From assembly GCF_001637325.1 (NCBI RefSeq), contig NZ_LRXL01000052.1, positions 62,001 through 126,000 on the forward strand: a DNA stretch of 64,000 nucleotides. The letters run 5' to 3'. Every line of letters starts with the position of its first letter. The first letter of the stretch is position 1. This document shows positions 1 to 23,924 of this stretch, in pieces. Source of the DNA: Cochleicola gelatinilyticus. GTDB taxonomy: Bacteria > Bacteroidota > Bacteroidia > Flavobacteriales > Flavobacteriaceae. A program made the position numbers and the translations under genes. The notes under the pieces are model-generated. The model saw nothing but the letters and a program-made list of their open reading frames with translations. It did no database searches and was not told where the DNA came from.

Positions 1-123
1 TCTAGTTTCGATGGAAATAGGGTACTGGGAACCTTTAGTTTTACAGGGTACAATTTGGACGATACCAGTGATACGGTTGCAGTTACTAACGGTTCTTTCA
101 ATATGCAGGTAGTGGAACAATAA
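1..123 (+). CDS. C-terminal end of a probable Bacteroidota lipoprotein (partial)
   Basis: The window opens inside a reading frame in frame 1, which runs 40 codons to TAA at 121-123. The visible part contains SFTGYNLDDT and VTNGSFNMQV, an alternating beta-strand pattern. It resembles the last strands of small secreted or lipoprotein beta-domains common in flavobacteria (DUF6252-like). That comparison is from memory and weak. The N-terminus, signal and start are outside the window. A strong terminator follows at 166-202, so this is the end of a transcription unit. Confidence 0.55.
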   Translation, partial: SSFDGNRVLGTFSFTGYNLDDTSDTVAVTNGSFNMQVVEQ

Positions 124-8093: not shown

Positions 8094-9347
8094 TTACAAT
8101 TTAAAGGCTTCTTTTACTTTGTCAACATAATCCAATTTTTCCCACGTAAACAGTTCTACTTCTCTTTCGATAACCCCATTATATGGACTTTCGAAGATTT
8201 TTGTAACCGTTTCAGGAATTCGCCCCATGTGTCCGTAGGCAGCAGTTTCTACATAGATTGGATTTCGTAATTTCAATCTTTTTTCGATGGCTGCTGGACG
8301 CATATCGAATAATTTCGCTACAATCTTCGCAATTTCACCATCGGTAAGCGATACGTGTGAAGTTCCGTGTGTGTTTACTAGAATTGAAGTTGGTTCTACC
8401 ACTCCAATGGCGTACGAAACTTGCACAAGAATCTCGTCTGCTACACCAGCTGCGACTAAATTTTTTGCGATATGTCTCGAAGCATAGGCGGCACTGCGAT
8501 CTACTTTACTAGGATCTTTTCCGCTAAAGGCACCTCCACCATGAGCGCCTTTTCCACCGTAAGTATCTACGATGATCTTTCTTCCGGTAAGTCCAGTGTC
8601 ACCGTGAGGGCCACCAATTACGAATTTTCCAGTGGGATTAATATGATATACTATATCGTTAGTGAATAATTTTTGAACATACTCAGGAAGTTGTGCTTTT
8701 ACCTTCGGAATTAAAATCTCTAAGATGTCTTTTTTAATTTTTGCAAGCATCGCCTCATCTTCATCGAACTCGTCGTGTTGTGTAGACAAAACGATCGAAA
8801 CAATTTTTTGAGGAATATTGTCGTCACTGTATTCAATGGTTACTTGACTTTTAGAGTCGGGGCGTAGGTATGGAATTTCATCCTCTGCTCTGCGTAATTT
8901 GGCTAATTCTATTAAAATAGTGTGCGAAATCTCCAAGGCAAGTGGCATGAAATTTTCGGTTTCTTTGGTTGCATAACCAAACATCATTCCTTGGTCACCT
9001 GCTCCTTGCTCTTCCTTATCTTCGCGATCTACTCCTTGATTAATGTCTTGAGATTGTTCGTGAATTAACGAAATAACACCACAAGAATCACCACTAAATT
9101 TATAGGCACCTTTTGTGTATCCAATTTTGTTAACAACATCTCTTGCGATGGTTTGAACATCGAGATACGTGTCACTCTTTACTTCTCCAGCAAGTACCAC
9201 TTGACCCGTAGTAACTAGCGTTTCACATGCTACTTTCGATTCGGGATCGAAGGCTAAAAAATGATCTAATAAGGCGTCACTAATTTGATCTGCAACTTTA
9301 TCTGGGTGTCCTTCAGAAACACTTTCTGAAGTAAATAAATAGGCCAT
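8094..9347 (-). CDS. metK: S-adenosylmethionine synthase MetK
   Basis: A 417-residue enzyme that makes S-adenosylmethionine from methionine and ATP in the cytoplasm. The N-terminus [17 protein letters not shown] contains the conserved GHPDK motif. Downstream come the metal and ATP motifs [12 protein letters not shown] and the glycine-rich [19 protein letters not shown] loop, in the usual order and at near-typical length (a little longer than the E. coli enzyme). ATG 9347 is fixed by the family N-terminus. A SAM-II riboswitch lies in its leader (9409-9505) with a -7 promoter box at 9518-9525, so the gene is likely repressed by its own product. Confidence 0.97.
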
Positions 9348-9408
9348 AGCTAATTTTTAATTCTTAATTATAGGGGTCGATTTGACGAAAGCGTCTAAGG
9401 AAGTTATT

Positions 9409-9505
9409 ACTGCCTTTAGCATTTTTTAACCCTCGAAACTATAAGGATTTCTTCATTGACAGTGCCAAATCGGAAGAGGTTGCAATCAGTCAAATCTTTC
9501 CTCTT
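9409..9505 (-). ncRNA. SAM-II riboswitch in the metK leader
   Basis: Read on the minus strand. P1 pairs AAGAGG (9505-9500) with CCTCTT (9479-9474). The loop holds the class motif GATTTGACTGATTGCAA (9496-9480). The 3' strand AATGCTAAAGGCAGT (9423-9409) closes the pseudoknot: ACTG (9490-9487) pairs with CAGT (9412-9409), and GCA (9483-9481) pairs with TGC (9421-9419). This arrangement and the GATTT...ATTGC...GCTAAA residues are those of SAM-II (SAM-alpha). About 50 nt are inserted between P1 and the pseudoknot strand, matching SAM-II variants with an extra stem. The aptamer ends about 60 nt before the metK ATG, farther than in classical SAM-II leaders. Confidence 0.82.
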
Positions 9506-9517
9506 TTATGTAAGGGG

Positions 9518-9606: not shown

Positions 9607-9636
9607 TGGCTGTAAAGTTCAAACTTTTATTGAAAT

Positions 9637-9745
9637 GTTATCAAGAAAGGTGGAGGGATTAGACCCTACGAAACCTTAGCAACCCTTTATTCTATATAAA
9701 GAAGGTGCTACATTCTACAACGGTATTGTACCGGAGATAGATAAC
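9637..9745 (+). ncRNA. SAM-I (S-box) riboswitch upstream of metY
   Basis: P1 pairs GTTATC (9637-9642) with GATAAC (9740-9745). Inside are the S-box landmarks in order: TCAAGAAAGGTGGAGGGA with the K-turn region, GACCCTACGAAACCT closing P2, TTAGCAACC, a P3 hairpin (CCTTTAT / ATAAAG), GGTGCTACATTC, and a P4 hairpin CGGTA/TACCG. The match to the S-box consensus is very close. It should sense S-adenosylmethionine and switch off the methionine genes that follow. Confidence 0.93.
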
Positions 9746-9876
9746 GACAACCTGATTTTCTTTCTGAGGATCAGCGTCATTCTTAATAACATTTTTCTAT
9801 TAAAGTACGCCAAGAGGCGTGTTTATTCCGATCGTCGGAATTGTTTTAATTATTTATTAACTCAAAAATTAGAAAA
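9746..9876 (+). promoter_or_regulatory. Expression platform candidate between SAM-I and metY
   Basis: Three hairpins lie between the aptamer and the start codon: CTGAT/ATCAG near 9752-9774, ACGCC (9807-9811)/GGCGT (9816-9820), and ATTCCGA (9825-9831)/TCGGAAT (9835-9841). The last is followed by TGTTTT and could be a weak intrinsic terminator. I could not identify an antiterminator pairing with the aptamer, so the mode of control is open. Confidence 0.45.
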
Positions 9877-11169
9877 ATGAGTACACAACAATTTGCAACC
9901 CAATCATTGCACGCAGGTTACGATGTGACTGCAAACGGTGGTACCCGAGCGGTGCCAATTTATCAAACAAGCAGCTATGTTTTTAAAGACAGTGATCATG
10001 CTGCCAATCTCTTTAATCTTTCCGAACCGGGATTTATTTATACCCGGCTTAACAATCCTACCAATGATATTCTCGAGCAACGGCTCGCGGCACTCGAAGG
10101 TGGTATTGCTGCAGTAGTTACCGCCTCGGGAACTTCGGCAATTGCAACCACTTTACTCACTCTGTTACGATCTGGAGATCATATTGTGGCGTCAAGCAGT
10201 TTGTATGGAGGCACCTACAATTTATTAAATGTGACCTTGCCAAGATTTGGCATTAAAACCACTTTTGTAGATGCTTCAAATCCTGAAAATTTTGGAAATG
10301 CAGTACGAGAGAACACCCGTGCAATTTTTATTGAATCGTTAGGAAACCCTAAACTCGATGTGTTGGACATTGAAGCGATTTCGCTACAAGCAAAAGCGAA
10401 TAAGCTTCCACTAATTGTTGATAATACGGTAGCCTCACCAGCGCTTTTAAATCCGATTTCGTATGGGGCAAATATTGTAATTCATTCCCTTACTAAATAC
10501 ATCAATGGAAACGGCACTTCTTTAGGAGGCGTGATTATCGATGCTGGAACGTTCGACTGGACCAACGGCAAATTTCCCGAGTTTACCGAACCTTCAGAAG
10601 GATATCACGGGTTGATTTATTCCGAAGTATTAAAAGAAGCCGCGTTTATAGCAAAAGTACGAATTGAAGGTTTGCGTGACTTTGGTGCAGCATTGAGTCC
10701 GTTTAATGCATTTCAAATTTTACAAGGACTAGAAACTTTGGAGATCCGTATTCAAAAGCACAGTAAAAATGCCTTGAAAGTAGCGCAATGGTTGCAGGAT
10801 CGCGAAGAAGTTGCCTGGGTGCATTATCCCGGATTAGCAAACGACACATATTACGATTTGGCACAAAAATACCTTCCAAAAGGACAAAGTGGATTGGTTA
10901 CGTTTGGTTTAAAAGACGGATTCGAAGCGGCTAAAAAATTCGTGGATGCAACAAAACTCTTTTCATTACTTGCTAATATTGGAGATACTAAATCACTAAT
11001 CATACACCCCGCAAGTACCACGCACCAACAATTGAGTGAACAACAGCAGGAAACTACTGGAGTAACGAAAGAGCTTATAAGACTTTCGGTAGGATTAGAA
11101 AATCTTGACGATCTAATTGGAGATCTTAAACAAGCCTTGCAACTTGAAAAGAGTGTTGTTACTATATAA
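9877..11169 (+). CDS. metY: O-acetylhomoserine sulfhydrylase (PLP, Cys/Met metabolism family)
   Basis: A 430-residue PLP enzyme of the Cys/Met metabolism family. It has AVPIYQTSSYVF near the N-terminus, YTRLNNPT, the PLP-binding Lys207 in SLTKYINGNG, and the C-terminal LSVGLENLDDLIGDL. The long form (about 430 residues, with the insertion after the lysine) is typical of O-acetylhomoserine aminocarboxypropyltransferase (MetY/Met17), which makes homocysteine from O-acetylhomoserine and sulfide. The SAM-I riboswitch upstream and metX downstream support this role. A hairpin at 11185-11216 separates it from metX. Confidence 0.93.
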   Translation: MSTQQFATQSLHAGYDVTANGGTRAVPIYQTSSYVFKDSDHAANLFNLSEPGFIYTRLNNPTNDILEQRLAALEGGIAAVVTASGTSAIATTLLTLLRSGDHIVASSSLYGGTYNLLNVTLPRFGIKTTFVDASNPENFGNAVRENTRAIFIESLGNPKLDVLDIEAISLQAKANKLPLIVDNTVASPALLNPISYGANIVIHSLTKYINGNGTSLGGVIIDAGTFDWTNGKFPEFTEPSEGYHGLIYSEVLKEAAFIAKVRIEGLRDFGAALSPFNAFQILQGLETLEIRIQKHSKNALKVAQWLQDREEVAWVHYPGLANDTYYDLAQKYLPKGQSGLVTFGLKDGFEAAKKFVDATKLFSLLANIGDTKSLIIHPASTTHQQLSEQQQETTGVTKELIRLSVGLENLDDLIGDLKQALQLEKSVVTI

Positions 11170-19106: not shown

Positions 19107-19865
19107 ATGAAAAAATTAATTTACATAGTAATTGCTGTTGTTCTTTTTAGTTGTGATTCCGATAAGGGGTTAAATTGCTTTCAAGCGGCAGGTGATATTA
19201 TTCAGCAAGAAAGAATTGTACCCGAATTTAATCGTATTGTGGTTTTCGAGCGTACGACTTTATTAGTGCAGCAAGGTGATGAATATAGTGTGGTCGTAGA
19301 AACAGGTGAAAACCTTATGAACGATGTTGAAGTAAGTGTAGATAACGATCAACTCATTATTCGAAACACAAATGGTTGTAATGTAGTTCGTGATTACGGA
19401 ATTACAAAAGTGATCGTCACAGCTCCAAACATTACCGAAATAAGAAGCAGCACGGGGCAAACTGTTGAGAGCATTGGAACGCTTCAATTTCCTAGTTTAA
19501 CTTTATTGTCTGAAGATACTATCGAAGAAGATGCCTTTCATATCGACGGAGATTTTTATTTAAATCTAGACGTAGAAGATTTAAATATAACAGCGAATGG
19601 TCTTTCAAAGTTTTATCTTAGCGGGACTGCTAATAGAGCAAAATTCGAGTTGTTTTCTGGAGATACCCGTGTAGACGCTTCAAATCTAGCGGTTGAAAGC
19701 ATGTATCTTTTTCACCGCAGTACCAATGTCATGATTGTAAATCCGACGAGGAGCATTCGTGGTAAGATTGTTAGTATTGGTGATGTAGTCGTAAAAACAC
19801 CACGAGATTCATTAGAAATCGTTGAGGTAGAAGAGCTATACCGCGGGCGCCTTATTTTTGAGTAG
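19107..19865 (+). CDS. GIN-domain (DUF2807) lipoprotein, copy 2
   Basis: A 252-residue paralogue of the lipoprotein at 17208-17960. The lipobox is VLFSC with Cys16, followed by a Lys/Asp linker and the same order of motifs: VETGENLMNDVEV, CNVVRDYGITKVIVTAPNIT, the DGDFYLNLDVEDL strand pair and ELYRGRLIFE at the end. Conservation of the ends suggests the ends matter for the pair's function. Its last 14 bp overlap the end of the convergent gldA gene. No terminator is visible between them. Confidence 0.83.
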   Translation: MKKLIYIVIAVVLFSCDSDKGLNCFQAAGDIIQQERIVPEFNRIVVFERTTLLVQQGDEYSVVVETGENLMNDVEVSVDNDQLIIRNTNGCNVVRDYGITKVIVTAPNITEIRSSTGQTVESIGTLQFPSLTLLSEDTIEEDAFHIDGDFYLNLDVEDLNITANGLSKFYLSGTANRAKFELFSGDTRVDASNLAVESMYLFHRSTNVMIVNPTRSIRGKIVSIGDVVVKTPRDSLEIVEVEELYRGRLIFE

Positions 19866-20751
19866 TTAATTCAACAAATAACTTTTCGAGCGTCGTGTTT
19901 TTTTGATGTAACTGAAGAATTTTTAGTCCGTTATCATGAGCAAAATCAAACACACTTGATCGCATATCTTCCTGTGTATTAAAATAGAGCTGATAAACAA
20001 AACCAGCACTGTTCTCCACTTTTGTAACGTGCGTTAATTTCTGAAGCGCAATTTCTTCCACACGATAATCGAATTCAACTTCAACAATTTGTTGTTTTTC
20101 ATTCGACAGTTCCGAAAGTTTTTTATCAAGAACAATTTCTCCTTTATTAATAATGATCACCCGATCGCAAATTGCCTCAACTTCTTGCATAATATGCGTA
20201 GAAAGCAACACTGTTTTAGTGCTTCCAATATTTTTAATAAGTTCCCGGATTTCAATAAGCTGATTAGGATCGAGTCCTGTAGTAGGTTCATCGAGAATAA
20301 GTACGTCGGGATCATGAAGGAGTGCATTGGCAAGCCCCACACGTTGACGATATCCTTTAGAGAGCTGCCCGATTTTTTTATGTGCTTCTTGTGTAAGACC
20401 TACTCGAGATATTACTTTTTCTACTTCGGAAGTGGGCGTTTTATATAGTTCTGCATTAAACTGAAGGTACTCCCGCACATACATATCTAGGTATAACGGA
20501 TTGTGTTCTGGAAGATAGCCAATAGTTTGTTGAATTTTTTTAGGAGCTTCAGAAAGGGAAAATGAGTTAATTTTGGCGGTACCTTCCGTAGGAGCGATGT
20601 AGGTGGTAAGAATTTTCATCATCGTAGATTTTCCAGCACCATTAGGGCCTAAAAAACCTACAATTTCACCAGACTCAATCTTAAAAGATACATTGTTTAG
20701 AGCCTTTTGTGAGCCGTAAATTTTAGAAATATTTGAAACGTGTATCGACAT
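19852..20751 (-). CDS. gldA: Gliding motility ABC transporter ATPase GldA
   Basis: A 299-residue ABC ATPase. Walker A is GPNGAGKST, Q-loop YLPEHNPLY, signature LSKGYRQRVGLA, Walker B VLILDEPTTGLDP, and the switch His is in LLSTHIMQEVEAI. The N-terminus MSIHVSNISKIYGS and the about 70-residue C-terminal extension fit GldA, the ATPase of the GldAFG transporter needed for gliding in flavobacteria. gldF and gldG are not in the window. ATG 20751 is preferred over 20769 because the family begins at MSI. A -7 box TAGTTTTG (20774-20767, minus) precedes it. Confidence 0.9.
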   Translation of the reverse strand: MSIHVSNISKIYGSQKALNNVSFKIESGEIVGFLGPNGAGKSTMMKILTTYIAPTEGTAKINSFSLSEAPKKIQQTIGYLPEHNPLYLDMYVREYLQFNAELYKTPTSEVEKVISRVGLTQEAHKKIGQLSKGYRQRVGLANALLHDPDVLILDEPTTGLDPNQLIEIRELIKNIGSTKTVLLSTHIMQEVEAICDRVIIINKGEIVLDKKLSELSNEKQQIVEVEFDYRVEEIALQKLTHVTKVENSAGFVYQLYFNTQEDMRSSVFDFAHDNGLKILQLHQKNTTLEKLFVELTTQK

Positions 20752-20847
20752 ATTTTTCAGAAAAAACAAAACTACATAAATAAAAAAGCAAGTAAAATAT
20801 TTTGTGCCGTCGAAGTTTTAATTACATTAGCAGTATATAAACGAATA

Positions 20848-20919
20848 ATGAATCATTTAAGTACTTATTTCAATTTTTGGTATTTCTATTTTAAAGATAG
20901 AACCGGGATTGCTATGTAG
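20848..20919 (+). CDS. Aromatic leader peptide of the pheA attenuator
   Basis: A 23-codon reading frame, ATG 20848 to TAG 20917-20919. Residues 7-15 read YFNFWYFYF, eight aromatics in nine (four Phe, three Tyr, one Trp). It lies 71 bp before pheA, and the terminator hairpin begins 25 nt after its stop. Such a run is characteristic of leader peptides in ribosome-mediated attenuation (compare PheL and TrpL in enterobacteria). Starvation for charged aromatic tRNAs would stall the ribosome here. Translation has not been shown. Confidence 0.85.
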   Translation: MNHLSTYFNFWYFYFKDRTGIAM

Positions 20920-20973
20920 GTATTTACCACATATATTATATTCATCCCGGACAAAATGTTCGGGATTTTTTTT
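20903..20973 (+). promoter_or_regulatory. Transcription attenuator: mutually exclusive antiterminator and terminator
   Basis: CCGGGAT (20903-20909) pairs perfectly with ATCCCGG (20944-20950) as antiterminator. ATCCCGGAC (20944-20952) instead pairs with GTTCGGGAT (20958-20966), with one G-T wobble, to form a terminator followed by eight T (20966-20973). Segment 20944-20950 cannot be in both. The first antiterminator strand lies at codons 19-21 of the leader peptide, so a ribosome reaching the stop would mask it and allow termination. A ribosome stalled on the aromatic codons would leave it free. Confidence 0.85.
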
Positions 20974-20990
20974 GTTTAAAACTGAAACCT

Positions 20991-21863
20991 ATGTCACTAA
21001 AAATCGCCATTCAGGGAATAGAAAGTTCTTTTCACGACCTGGCCGTACAACAACTTTTTCCCAATCAAAATGTAGAACTCCTCCCTTGTAGTTCGTTCGA
21101 TAATGTCGCCGGTAGCCTGTCCGATTTTAGTGCAGATTTAGGGGTTATTGCAATAGAGAATACAATTGCGGGGTCTATTCTCCCAAATTATAATTTAATT
21201 GATAGTAAAAACTTAAAGATCCTTGATGAAACTTTTCTAACCATCGAAATGTATCTTATGGCGTTGCAGGGTGAGACTATCCATAGCATCGATGAGGTAC
21301 ATTCGCATCCAGTGGCGCTCCAGCAGTGCAAAGAATACCTTCAGCGATTGCAACCCCATTGTAAGGTTATTGAAGGAAAGGATACTGCTTCAGAAGCAAA
21401 AAGAATAAAAGAAAATGGTTTGAAAGGAGTTGCTGCCATCGCCGGAAAGCAAGTGGCTGAAAAGTACGGACTTCAAATTCTCGATAAAAATATTCAGACC
21501 ATAAAAGATAATAAAACTCGGTTTGTGGTAATAGGAAGAGAAACTGCGGAAAATGCTTCAGAAAGAAATAAAGCAACCCTTAAATTTCAGTTAGGACATG
21601 AAGTAGGAAGTTTAGCAAGTGTTTTACAATTGTTGAGTACCTTTGGCATCAATTTAACCAAAATACAATCTTTTCCTATAGAAGGTAGTCCTTGGCAGTA
21701 TTCATTCTTTATAGATGTTTTGTATGAAGATCAAGTGTTATTTGCAGAAGTAACCAACGTATTAGAAAAAGCAGTAAAAAAATTGAAGGTGCTGGGAACC
21801 TACAAACAAAATCTTAACAATGCTCCCAGTCAATTAAACAGACAATTAGTTCATGGAAAATAA
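20991..21863 (+). CDS. pheA: Prephenate dehydratase with ACT domain
   Basis: A 290-residue monofunctional enzyme converting prephenate to phenylpyruvate for phenylalanine synthesis. The dehydratase domain (1-185) contains GVIAIENTIAGSI, HSHPVALQQC and the catalytic Thr-Arg-Phe motif KTRFVVIG. An ACT domain (about 196-275) follows for phenylalanine feedback. The usual ESRP motif reads IQSFP here, so the Arg is replaced by Phe. There is no fused chorismate mutase; that domain is on the next protein. It overlaps the next gene by 11 bp and lies behind the aromatic attenuator. Confidence 0.94.
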   Translation: MSLKIAIQGIESSFHDLAVQQLFPNQNVELLPCSSFDNVAGSLSDFSADLGVIAIENTIAGSILPNYNLIDSKNLKILDETFLTIEMYLMALQGETIHSIDEVHSHPVALQQCKEYLQRLQPHCKVIEGKDTASEAKRIKENGLKGVAAIAGKQVAEKYGLQILDKNIQTIKDNKTRFVVIGRETAENASERNKATLKFQLGHEVGSLASVLQLLSTFGINLTKIQSFPIEGSPWQYSFFIDVLYEDQVLFAEVTNVLEKAVKKLKVLGTYKQNLNNAPSQLNRQLVHGK

Positions 21864-22938
21864 AAAAGAATTACGCACTTGGTTGAATAACATGAAGTTG
21901 GCGCATCCTTTAGTGATCGCTGGACCATGCAGTGCAGAGACCGAAGCGCAGGTTTTAAAAATAGCCCATCAGTTAAAAGATACAGATGCTACAGTACTTC
22001 GTGCCGGGATCTGGAAACCAAGAACTCGCCCAGGAAACTTTGAAGGGGTAGGGGCTTTAGGATTAAAATGGCTTCAAAAAGCAAAAGAAGAAACCGGGAT
22101 GTTAACCACTACCGAAGTGGCCAATGCCAACCACGTAGACCTTGCGTTAAAACATGATGTGGATATACTTTGGATCGGTGCTCGAACTACGGTGTCACCT
22201 TTTATTGTTCAGGAAATTGCTGATGCCTTGAATGGGACAGATAAAGTGGTGCTTATTAAAAACCCAGTAAATCCCGACCTTGCATTATGGTTAGGAGCTG
22301 TAGAGCGTTTTTATGAAGCAGGTGTAAAAAATCTTGGGGTGATTCACAGAGGATTTTCTGCTTATGAAAAAAATACATACCGAAACAATCCCGAATGGCA
22401 GATTCCTATCGATCTTCAAACGCGATTTCCCGATCTTCCACTTATTCTGGACCCTTCGCACATTGCGGGACGTCGTGATTTAATTTTCGACTTGTGTCAA
22501 ACCGCGTTAGATCTTAATTACGACGGACTCATGGTAGAGACTCATTACGATCCCGACAATGCTTGGAGTGATGCGGCACAGCAAATTACCCCTGCGGCTT
22601 TAGATAAAATGACGGTGGATCTTCGTATTCGTGTTGAAGAAGGAGACGAAGTAGAATTTAAGAACAAACTTAATACATTGCGAACCAAGATTGATGTGAT
22701 GGATCATCAAGTAATTGAAACCTTGGGAAAACGTATGAAGATCGCAGACCAGATCGGGGCACTTAAAAAAGAACAAAACGTTGCTATACTACAAACCAAA
22801 CGATGGAATGAAGTATTAGGAAAAATGATTCTTGAAGGAGAAGAGTACAAATTAAGTGAAGAATTCGTGCTTAAGATTTATAAAGCAATTCATCAAGAAT
22901 CGATCAATCACCAAAAGAAAGTGATTAGCGGAGAATAA
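21853..22938 (+). CDS. aroF: Bifunctional DAHP synthase / chorismate mutase
   Basis: A 361-residue protein. Residues about 10-255 are a DAHP synthase of the KDO8P-like (AroAIbeta) type: AGPCSAETEAQVL, RAGIWKPRTRPGNFEG, LWIGARTT, LIKNPVNPD, LDPSHIAGRRD. Residues about 265-361 are an AroQ-type chorismate mutase: LNTLRTKIDVMDHQVIETL, RMKIADQIGALKKEQ. It opens the shikimate pathway and also makes prephenate, which the upstream PheA consumes. The symbol is approximate, since names vary (aroF, aroG, aroA(G)). An aminotransferase and TyrA, often found in this operon in relatives, are missing here. Confidence 0.92.
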   Translation: MENKKELRTWLNNMKLAHPLVIAGPCSAETEAQVLKIAHQLKDTDATVLRAGIWKPRTRPGNFEGVGALGLKWLQKAKEETGMLTTTEVANANHVDLALKHDVDILWIGARTTVSPFIVQEIADALNGTDKVVLIKNPVNPDLALWLGAVERFYEAGVKNLGVIHRGFSAYEKNTYRNNPEWQIPIDLQTRFPDLPLILDPSHIAGRRDLIFDLCQTALDLNYDGLMVETHYDPDNAWSDAAQQITPAALDKMTVDLRIRVEEGDEVEFKNKLNTLRTKIDVMDHQVIETLGKRMKIADQIGALKKEQNVAILQTKRWNEVLGKMILEGEEYKLSEEFVLKIYKAIHQESINHQKKVISGE

Positions 22939-22950
22939 AACGGTATGATG

Positions 22951-22958
22951 TATCTTTG
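22951..22958 (+). promoter_or_regulatory. -7 promoter box for rsgA
   Basis: TATCTTTG matches TAnnTTTG 18 nt before the rsgA ATG. The spacer to the preceding stop is only 38 bp, so this suggests a new transcript start. No -33 element is clear. Confidence 0.6.
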
Positions 22959-22976
22959 CCCCTGTAAAGAAACCCT

Positions 22977-23924
22977 ATGAAAGGAATTGTCTATAAATCT
23001 ACCGGAAGCTGGTACACTGTAAAATCACAAAATGGTGAGTTTTACGAATGCCGAATTAAGGGCAAATTCCGAATACAAGGGATTAAAAGTACCAATCCTG
23101 TAGCCGTAGGGGATCATGTTGTTTTCGAAGTGGAGACTAAGGGAGATGAGACCATTGGAATTATCAACAAAATTGAAGAACGAGAAAATTACATCATCCG
23201 TAAATCGGTGAACCTTTCCAAGCAGACGCACATTATTGCAGCAAATGTAGATGTGGCATTTTTATTAGTGACACTAAATAATCCGCCTACTTTTACCACT
23301 TTTATCGATCGTTTTCTTGTTACTGCAGAAGCGTATCATATTAATGCGGTGCTTTTATTTAATAAGATCGATACCTACAATGAGGAGGAATTATTAGAGA
23401 TTAAGTATTTGGCAGCCATGTACCGAGAGATTGGGTATGAATGTATTGGAATTTCGGCAGTCACTGGAAAAAATGTTGAGAAAGTAAAGGCATTAATGGA
23501 AGGCAAAGTGAGTATGTTTTCTGGACATAGTGGTGTGGGGAAATCTACGCTGGTAAATGCAATCGAGCCTACGCTTCAATTAAAGACCTCCAAAATTTCA
23601 AGTCAGCACATGCAGGGGCAACATACCACGACATTTGCAGAAATGTTCGACCTATCCTTTAATGCTAGAATTATCGATACGCCCGGAATTAAAGGGTTTG
23701 GAATTGTTGAAGTAAACAAAGAAGAATTAGGAAATTATTTTCCAGAATTTTTTGCCTTAAAAGAGCATTGTAAATTTAACAACTGTTTGCATCGAGAAGA
23801 ACCTCAATGTGCCGTAAAGGAGGCGTTAGAAAACGACGAGATCGCTTGGTCCCGTTATAAAAGTTATCTTCAGATCATGGAGGGAGAAGAAGAACATTAC
23901 CGGCAAACACAGCACGGGAATTAA
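22977..23924 (+). CDS. rsgA: Ribosome small subunit-dependent GTPase A
   Basis: A 315-residue circularly permuted GTPase that acts in late 30S maturation. An OB domain (1-70) is followed by G4 LFNKIDTY, G5 SAVTGKN, G1 GHSGVGKSTLVNAI and G3 DTPGIKG, the permuted order typical of RsgA. The zinc finger HCKFNNCLH...QCAVKEAL has the family's C-x5-C-x-H-x5-C-like ligands. The length is normal. It has its own -7 box and is followed by dtd after 20 bp. Confidence 0.96.
   Translation: MKGIVYKSTGSWYTVKSQNGEFYECRIKGKFRIQGIKSTNPVAVGDHVVFEVETKGDETIGIINKIEERENYIIRKSVNLSKQTHIIAANVDVAFLLVTLNNPPTFTTFIDRFLVTAEAYHINAVLLFNKIDTYNEEELLEIKYLAAMYREIGYECIGISAVTGKNVEKVKALMEGKVSMFSGHSGVGKSTLVNAIEPTLQLKTSKISSQHMQGQHTTTFAEMFDLSFNARIIDTPGIKGFGIVEVNKEELGNYFPEFFALKEHCKFNNCLHREEPQCAVKEALENDEIAWSRYKSYLQIMEGEEEHYRQTQHGN

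Follow-up and report, generated by a model that had tools for sequence, protein, structure and literature searches.

A conserved aromatic leader peptide and a probable ribosome-mediated attenuator upstream of pheA-aroF in Cochleicola gelatinilyticus and related Bacteroidia

In Cochleicola gelatinilyticus, the gene pair pheA-aroF is preceded by a short reading frame crowded with aromatic codons, which raises the question of whether this frame controls transcription of the two genes and to which amino acids it responds. The locus lies in a window of 64,000 nt (NZ_LRXL01000052.1, 62,001-126,000), whose coordinates are used throughout. An operon combining a DAHP synthase with a prephenate dehydratase had been proposed in an earlier note on this DNA, and the Pfam domains agree with that proposal. 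The two genes overlap by 11 bp and join the Phe branch to the shared first step of aromatic synthesis:

20991-21863, plus strand: pheA, prephenate dehydratase with an ACT domain (Pfam PF00800, PF01842)
21853-22938, plus strand: aroF-type DAHP synthase (DAHP synthase I) fused to chorismate mutase II (Pfam PF00793, PF01817)

Here, sequence comparison and folding models point to the pheA-aroF leader as a ribosome-mediated transcription attenuator that would switch the operon on when Phe or Tyr, and perhaps Trp, is short, a reading to which we assign a probability of about 0.9. Direct reading of the sequence bore out the 23-codon frame with YFNFWYFYF that the earlier note had placed at 20848; the ATG starts at that position and the stop codon TAG occupies 20917-20919. 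Equally, CCGGGAT in leader codons 19-21 proved complementary to ATCCCGG, the 5' arm of a terminator that ends in eight T. The elements of the leader region are as follows:

20802-20830, plus strand: probable Bacteroidetes-type promoter, predicted from sequence; TTG (20802-20804), 18 nt, TACATTAG (20823-20830)
20848-20919, plus strand: leader peptide ORF, 23 sense codons and TAG, MNHLSTYFNFWYFYFKDRTGIAM (direct reading and relatives)
20866-20892, plus strand: control codons 7-15, Y F N F W Y F Y F, eight of nine aromatic (direct reading; run present in 80 of 80 family loci)
20871-20880, plus strand: segment 1, CAATTTTTGG, codons 8-11, pairing with segment 2 in the predicted fold of the leader alone
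20903-20909, plus strand: segment 2, CCGGGAT, antiterminator 5' arm within leader codons 19-21 (reading, covariation, fold model and spacing)
20944-20950, plus strand: segment 3, ATCCCGG, antiterminator 3' arm and terminator 5' arm (covariation)
20944-20973, plus strand: predicted intrinsic terminator, hairpin 20944-20966 and eight T at 20966-20973 (reading, relatives and covariation)

The terminator hairpin comprises 10 pairs and a loop of 3, and its stem's final base doubles as the first of the eight T. Segment 1, absent from the earlier note, lies within codons 8-11 and resembles a protector: in the predicted fold, it can pair with CCGGGATTG. Taken in the window alone, the terminator does not rise above chance: a pattern scan of 20600-23000 found one, and shuffles average 1.8. 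This result favours the view that an A+T-rich spacer, a U-rich frame and an unrelated terminator merely happen to adjoin. Conservation in relatives, however, raised the leader region above chance. A protein search identified PheA in 268 of 299 Flavobacteriaceae genomes, from which 80 pheA loci were fetched (the best 60 after the window's own and 20 lower ones among the matches listed). The aromatic leader frame was present in all 80, with 6 aromatic residues per ten at 2 loci, 7 at 16, 8 at 55 and 9 at 7, and an ATG frame with at least 6/10 aromatic residues lay within 300 bp of pheA at 79 of them; the leader of the sole remaining locus (L109) is further upstream. Since the leader finder picks the richest frame, shuffle controls were run, and the threshold of at least 6/10 was reached by 34 of 1600 dinucleotide-shuffled regions (2.1%) and by 3 of 1250 pieces of 300 bp taken from elsewhere in these loci. 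Between leader and pheA, a stem paired along its whole length, G-U included, with a T run after it was found at 80/80 loci and in the window, this count being the output of a terminator finder run on the family set without a null. The upstream neighbor, an ABC-transporter ATPase gene (ABC_tran, 19852-20769), lies on the minus strand, is oriented away from the leader and hence does not need its terminator. Against the leader in 80/80 relatives, this gene orientation and the covariation described below, a chance arrangement is hardly credible.

Covariation was assessed in a 40-sequence MAFFT alignment that was not fitted to structure. In the terminator, 98.8% of cells were paired, with double changes at six of seven pairs, and in the antiterminator 90.2% were paired, with double changes at four of seven; sliding the antiterminator arms out of register left at most 45.4% paired. 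Antiterminator cells with double changes numbered 23 against 9.0 in shuffles that leave the relatedness of the sequences in place, while two of the five antiterminator measures, the number of pairs with double changes (reached in 72 of 500 shuffles) and further pair types (267 of 500), were not above the shuffles. Three sequences (L042, L043 and L047) appear, by eye, one column off register in segment 2; they remain in the alignment, at the cost of lower antiterminator counts. Across leaders, segments 2, 3 and 4 vary together, giving the combinations CCGGGAT/ATCCCGG, CGAGAC/GTCTCG, CGGGAC/GTCCCG, CCGGGT/ACCCGG and CAGGAC/GTCCTG. The core cells of the 2:3 pairing were paired at 95.9%, compared with 85.9% (maximum 88.5% in 2000 swaps) when segment 2 was swapped among the sequences, percentages that are biased to pairing by a register chosen for best pairing. 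The RNAalifold consensus is the terminator alone, as expected for two mutually exclusive helices. The comparison in relatives, set beforehand, thus returned both the aromatic run and the two pairings as conserved and covarying: an intrinsic terminator between leader and first gene in 81/81 leaders, and an antiterminator that excludes it and whose 5' arm a translating ribosome can reach. Among 40 leaders with U at column 1 of segment 3, segment 2 offers an A-U pair in 36 and the terminator 3' arm a weaker G-U pair in 27, as if the antiterminator were favored over the terminator at this column.

The distance between codons and pairing arm is likewise conserved. Counted from the last aromatic codon, segment 2 starts 7-11 nt downstream in 75 of 81 leaders, compared with 10.6% for shuffled spacers, and an unrestricted leader search recovered the same segment 2 in 81/81. 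A ribosome (P-site first base +15) covers about 9 nt beyond its A-site codon. With this footprint placed on the RNA up to segment 3, an equilibrium folding model gave antiterminator probabilities above 0.5 in 80/81 leaders when the A site was at the first aromatic codon and in 79/81 at the last, falling to 42/81 one codon past the run, 3/81 two codons past it and 0/81 at the stop codon. For the window, the modeled probability was 0.97 at codons 2-15, 0.28 at codon 16 and 0 from codon 17 onward. Because the spacing is 7-11 nt in most leaders, the modeled switch point coincides with the end of the aromatic run, a geometry that fits the earlier proposal that ribosome position chooses the hairpin. 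For the whole leader with a ribosome halted at codon 15, the predicted energies were -19.3 kcal/mol with the terminator and -15.0 kcal/mol with the antiterminator; the terminator being more stable at equilibrium, the switch must be kinetic, that is, a matter of timing. A leader free of ribosomes is predicted to fold on itself via segment 1: the 1:2 pairing exceeded 0.5 in 76/81 leaders before segment 3 was made, and the 2:3 pairing in 56/81 afterward, so that the model does not clearly predict basal termination in untranslated leaders.

Given the anatomy, conservation, covariation and spacing seen in sequence and comparison, the following course would be expected for leader translation, for termination or readthrough and for responses to the individual amino acids. 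RNA polymerase would start shortly 5' of the leader ATG, and a ribosome would follow it through the leader. If a tRNA serving the control codons 7-15 (for Phe, for Tyr and probably, in this lineage, for Trp) were poorly charged, the ribosome would halt with its front edge just before CCGGGAT, leaving this segment free to pair with the nascent ATCCCGG; the terminator would thereby be blocked and pheA-aroF transcribed. With charged tRNAs, the ribosome would reach the stop codon and cover CCGGGAT, so that ATCCCGG and its 3' partner would form the terminator. A halt at any single control codon would suffice, amounting to OR logic.

A different use of the peptide, namely arrest of the nascent chain on a free aromatic amino acid as in TnaC, would also place a short hydrophobic peptide 5' of the regulated gene. 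The order of residues, however, is not fixed, as F, Y, W and short insertions (N, NG or QS, for example) vary among leaders, and it is instead the distance from the run to segment 2 that is nearly constant. Moreover, a biosynthetic operon is expected to be raised on shortage, not on excess. We therefore consider peptide arrest very unlikely.

The start of the transcript was addressed by a promoter search that allowed one mismatch to TAnnTTTG, with a TTG box and a spacing that we take to be those of the promoter pattern. A site of the form TTG-17..23-TAnnTTTG was predicted in 60 of 81 leaders at 8-45 nt 5' of the leader ATG, with 8 of them exact; in mononucleotide shuffles, the rate was 4.9%. 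The accessible part of PMC9723704 gives this TAnnTTTG box. In the window, the box TACATTAG has one mismatch and ends 17 nt 5' of the ATG. On this prediction, the leader probably sits near the RNA 5' end, and the 5' UTR before the ATG is probably short. T-box, riboswitch and protein-bound elements control aromatic operons in other phyla, and such an element could in principle act on the same terminator. Yet no Rfam 15 family, a T-box or riboswitch included, reaches its gathering score at the leader, the 5' UTR set by the predicted promoter would be too short for an aptamer, and the best-conserved columns are the codons and the switching arms. Control of this kind thus appears highly improbable, and attenuation by a translating ribosome remains our preferred reading.

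Which amino acids such an attenuator would sense is less uniform across its inputs. The earlier note had it read charged tRNA-Phe, -Tyr and -Trp together, and the first two inputs are supported, with codons for both Phe and Tyr, products that the operon serves, in 81/81 family leaders. Most doubt attaches to the Trp input: its codon occurs in 63/81 family leaders and, outside Flavobacteriaceae, in 9 of 28 leaders, and is predicted to pair with segment 2 of the ribosome-free leader in 39/63. It is quite possible, if short of likely, that the same attenuator is effectively a Phe/Tyr sensor in which the Trp codon is a tolerated aromatic or its UGG aids the pairing of segments 1 and 2. Trp is missing from 18/81 family leaders and from 20 of the 29 leaders in a class-wide set (W in 9, F and Y in all), and 62 of the 63 Trp-bearing leaders hold a single Trp codon, which may be retained for RNA structure according to the fold model. 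An argument that the Trp codon is mostly unable to pair with segment 2 fails on the 39/63 predicted to do so (18/22 in the pheA-aroF group, 21/41 in the others). Against a Phe/Tyr-only sensor, the 81 leaders hold 440 F, 264 Y and 64 W in 1902 codons, an enrichment over pheA of 4.9-fold for Phe and 4.7-fold for Tyr and of 8.9-fold for Trp (64/1902 compared with 84/22102). In addition, 24 of 63 Trp codons have no predicted segment 2 pairing, Trp is present in 22 of 23 pheA-aroF leaders, and pairing and sensing are compatible. The choice of TTC and TAC codons in the 81 leaders showed nothing clear.

Tryptophan has a leader of its own elsewhere in this genome. Its trpE (PF04715, PF00425) is preceded by a Bacteroid-trp RNA (L155:1521-1577) with the frame MNTNKVHTWWWNNLRKTS, containing WWW. 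This leader at trpE indicates that Trp regulates its own branch separately, in keeping with a Phe/Tyr-only sensor at pheA, while a Trp codon before aroF would give Trp a say on the shared first step.

The content of the operon differs among relatives. Using tblastn with the proteins of one relative, the 81 family loci were called as pheA-aat-tyrA-aroF (55), pheA-aroF (23) or other orders (3, one of them at a contig end). In the window, rsgA lies downstream of aroF (22977-23924), and a 316-aa frame with a similar N-terminus, judged by eye, follows aroF in L054, L067 and L101. The window's genome (G000, 99.98% complete) has no match to prephenate dehydrogenase (PF02153), and TyrA is above the PF02153 cut-off in 0 of 22 other pheA-aroF genomes (two weak matches fall below it) and in 20 of 20 chosen genomes with the four-gene operon. 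The window's genome encodes a protein with two Biopterin_H stretches in a 686-aa frame (L160:1435-3495), which was also found in 19 of the 22 other pheA-aroF genomes and in 14 of the 20 four-gene genomes. Among the 22, it was not found in G292 (76% complete), G111 (64% complete) and G059, the last of which thus has neither this protein nor a TyrA above the cut-off. Lack of TyrA and presence of the Biopterin_H protein suggest that the pheA-aroF lineage may make Tyr from Phe.

Leaders of the pheA-aroF group carry 2.35 Tyr codons each compared with 3.62 in the others, a contrast that is not independent evidence, as 22 of the 23 members have closely related PheA. In the class-wide set, the contrast is absent, with 3.77 Tyr codons where tyrA is missing from the fetched stretch and 3.44 where it is present (one stretch, L133, being short). 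Ten class genomes lack tyrA beside pheA; TyrA is matched strongly elsewhere in four of them, and in one more the match is barely over the cut-off. A Tyr codon mix that tracks gene content thus comes largely from a single clade and has no counterpart in the class set. Tentatively, and as something possible rather than probable, the leader could be a three-input OR gate on charging of tRNA-Phe, -Tyr and -Trp, old and widespread in the class, with a codon mix that follows the pathway: in the TyrA-less lineage, where Tyr probably comes from Phe hydroxylation, Tyr codons would be fewer and yet retained because pheA-aroF flux feeds all three amino acids.

To follow the leader beyond the family, 197 Bacteroidia genomes (completeness filter 90) were searched, 58 of which had a PheA match, 7 of these Flavobacteriaceae. 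Among 40 class loci fetched, 39 outside Flavobacteriaceae and one from a distant family member (L143), 29, L143 included, have an aromatic frame with at least 5/10 aromatic residues, a threshold also reached by 147 of 1600 family shuffles, so that single weak class cases may be chance. No such leader was found at the other 11 class loci (L111, L112, L113, L116, L117, L126, L137, L139, L141, L142 and L146). A covariance model built from 40 leaders (R1) matched 21 of 31 relatives. The matches fall in 18 of 19 Flavobacteriaceae genomes and in 3 of 12 from other Flavobacteriales families, where two are weak (E 3.2e-4 and 9.5e-4). In 10 of the 18 family genomes, pheA lies directly 3' of the match, these ten being the ones with listed pheA coordinates. 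In the window's genome, the model matched only the window site at E <= 0.001, revealing no second copy, and a plasmid search for relatives gave no match. Second, weak matches occur in two relatives (G009:C10:860634-860768 and G493:C1:3008571-3008685). As judged from sequence, the leader appears to be a widespread control of aromatic synthesis among relatives in the class.

The kind of switch is classical. Enterobacterial trpL and pheL/pheA combine a translated leader with control codons, an antiterminator and a terminator that share one arm, and a biosynthetic target, and ilv-type multivalent attenuators read Ile, Leu and Val in one leader. The pheA-aroF leader has the layout and biosynthetic target of trpL and pheL/pheA, but mixes three aromatic residues in one run and precedes an operon that includes the shared DAHP synthase; sequence kinship to Rfam RF00513 (Trp_leader) was not found, the 17.0 bits obtained falling short of the gathering score, 41. 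As in the ilv type, one leader would read several amino acids of a shared pathway, here aromatic and there branched-chain. Within the same phylum, Bacteroid-trp RNA (Rfam RF01692; Weinberg et al. 2010, PMC2864571, from the accessible part) apparently follows the same logic, but reads Trp only and serves another operon; RF01692 did not match at the pheA leader, and its sole match in this genome is the one at trpE.

The earlier note knew of no such leader described in flavobacteria, a statement that gives way to PMC9723704. The accessible part of this paper reports strong clues for leader-peptide attenuation 5' of amino-acid operons in F. psychrophilum and already names a structured 5' element upstream of pheA that is kept in other Flavobacteriaceae genera and has no Rfam match. 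That element shares place, family, lack of an Rfam match and suggested attenuation with ours, and is likened to it by place rather than base for base, as the accessible part gives no peptide, codons, pairings or spread. Among the literature matches listed, there was no further description of the pheA leader; Lopatovskaya et al. 2010 may bear on priority. As the accessible part of PMC2965389 (2010) puts it, leader-peptide systems had, to its authors' knowledge, been shown only in Proteobacteria and Actinobacteria, to which it adds a Firmicutes case. What is new here is the anatomy, the spacing rule, the wider spread and the TyrA-less lineage, the location having been flagged in print. The well-conserved leader is almost certainly a real attenuator; its kind is known, its run of three different aromatic residues unusual.

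Of these points, the spacing rule and the class-wide spread are the most useful. They suggest that classical leader-peptide attenuation is a common control of aromatic synthesis in the class, including Flavobacteriaceae, which the accessible part of PMC9723704 describes as lacking Shine-Dalgarno sequences. The tight spacing from codons to antiterminator would offer a natural ruler for ribosome position and thereby for ribosome-polymerase coupling, and the leader, as an RNA element without an Rfam 15 match, can be modeled and annotated. Elsewhere in the window, SAM riboswitches of two different classes form a divergent pair: RF01726 (SAM-II long loop) at 9405-9509 on the minus strand, before an S-adenosylmethionine synthetase gene (8094-9347, minus strand), and RF00162 (SAM-I) at 9635-9747 on the plus strand, before a gene for a Cys/Met-metabolism PLP enzyme (9877-11169, plus strand).
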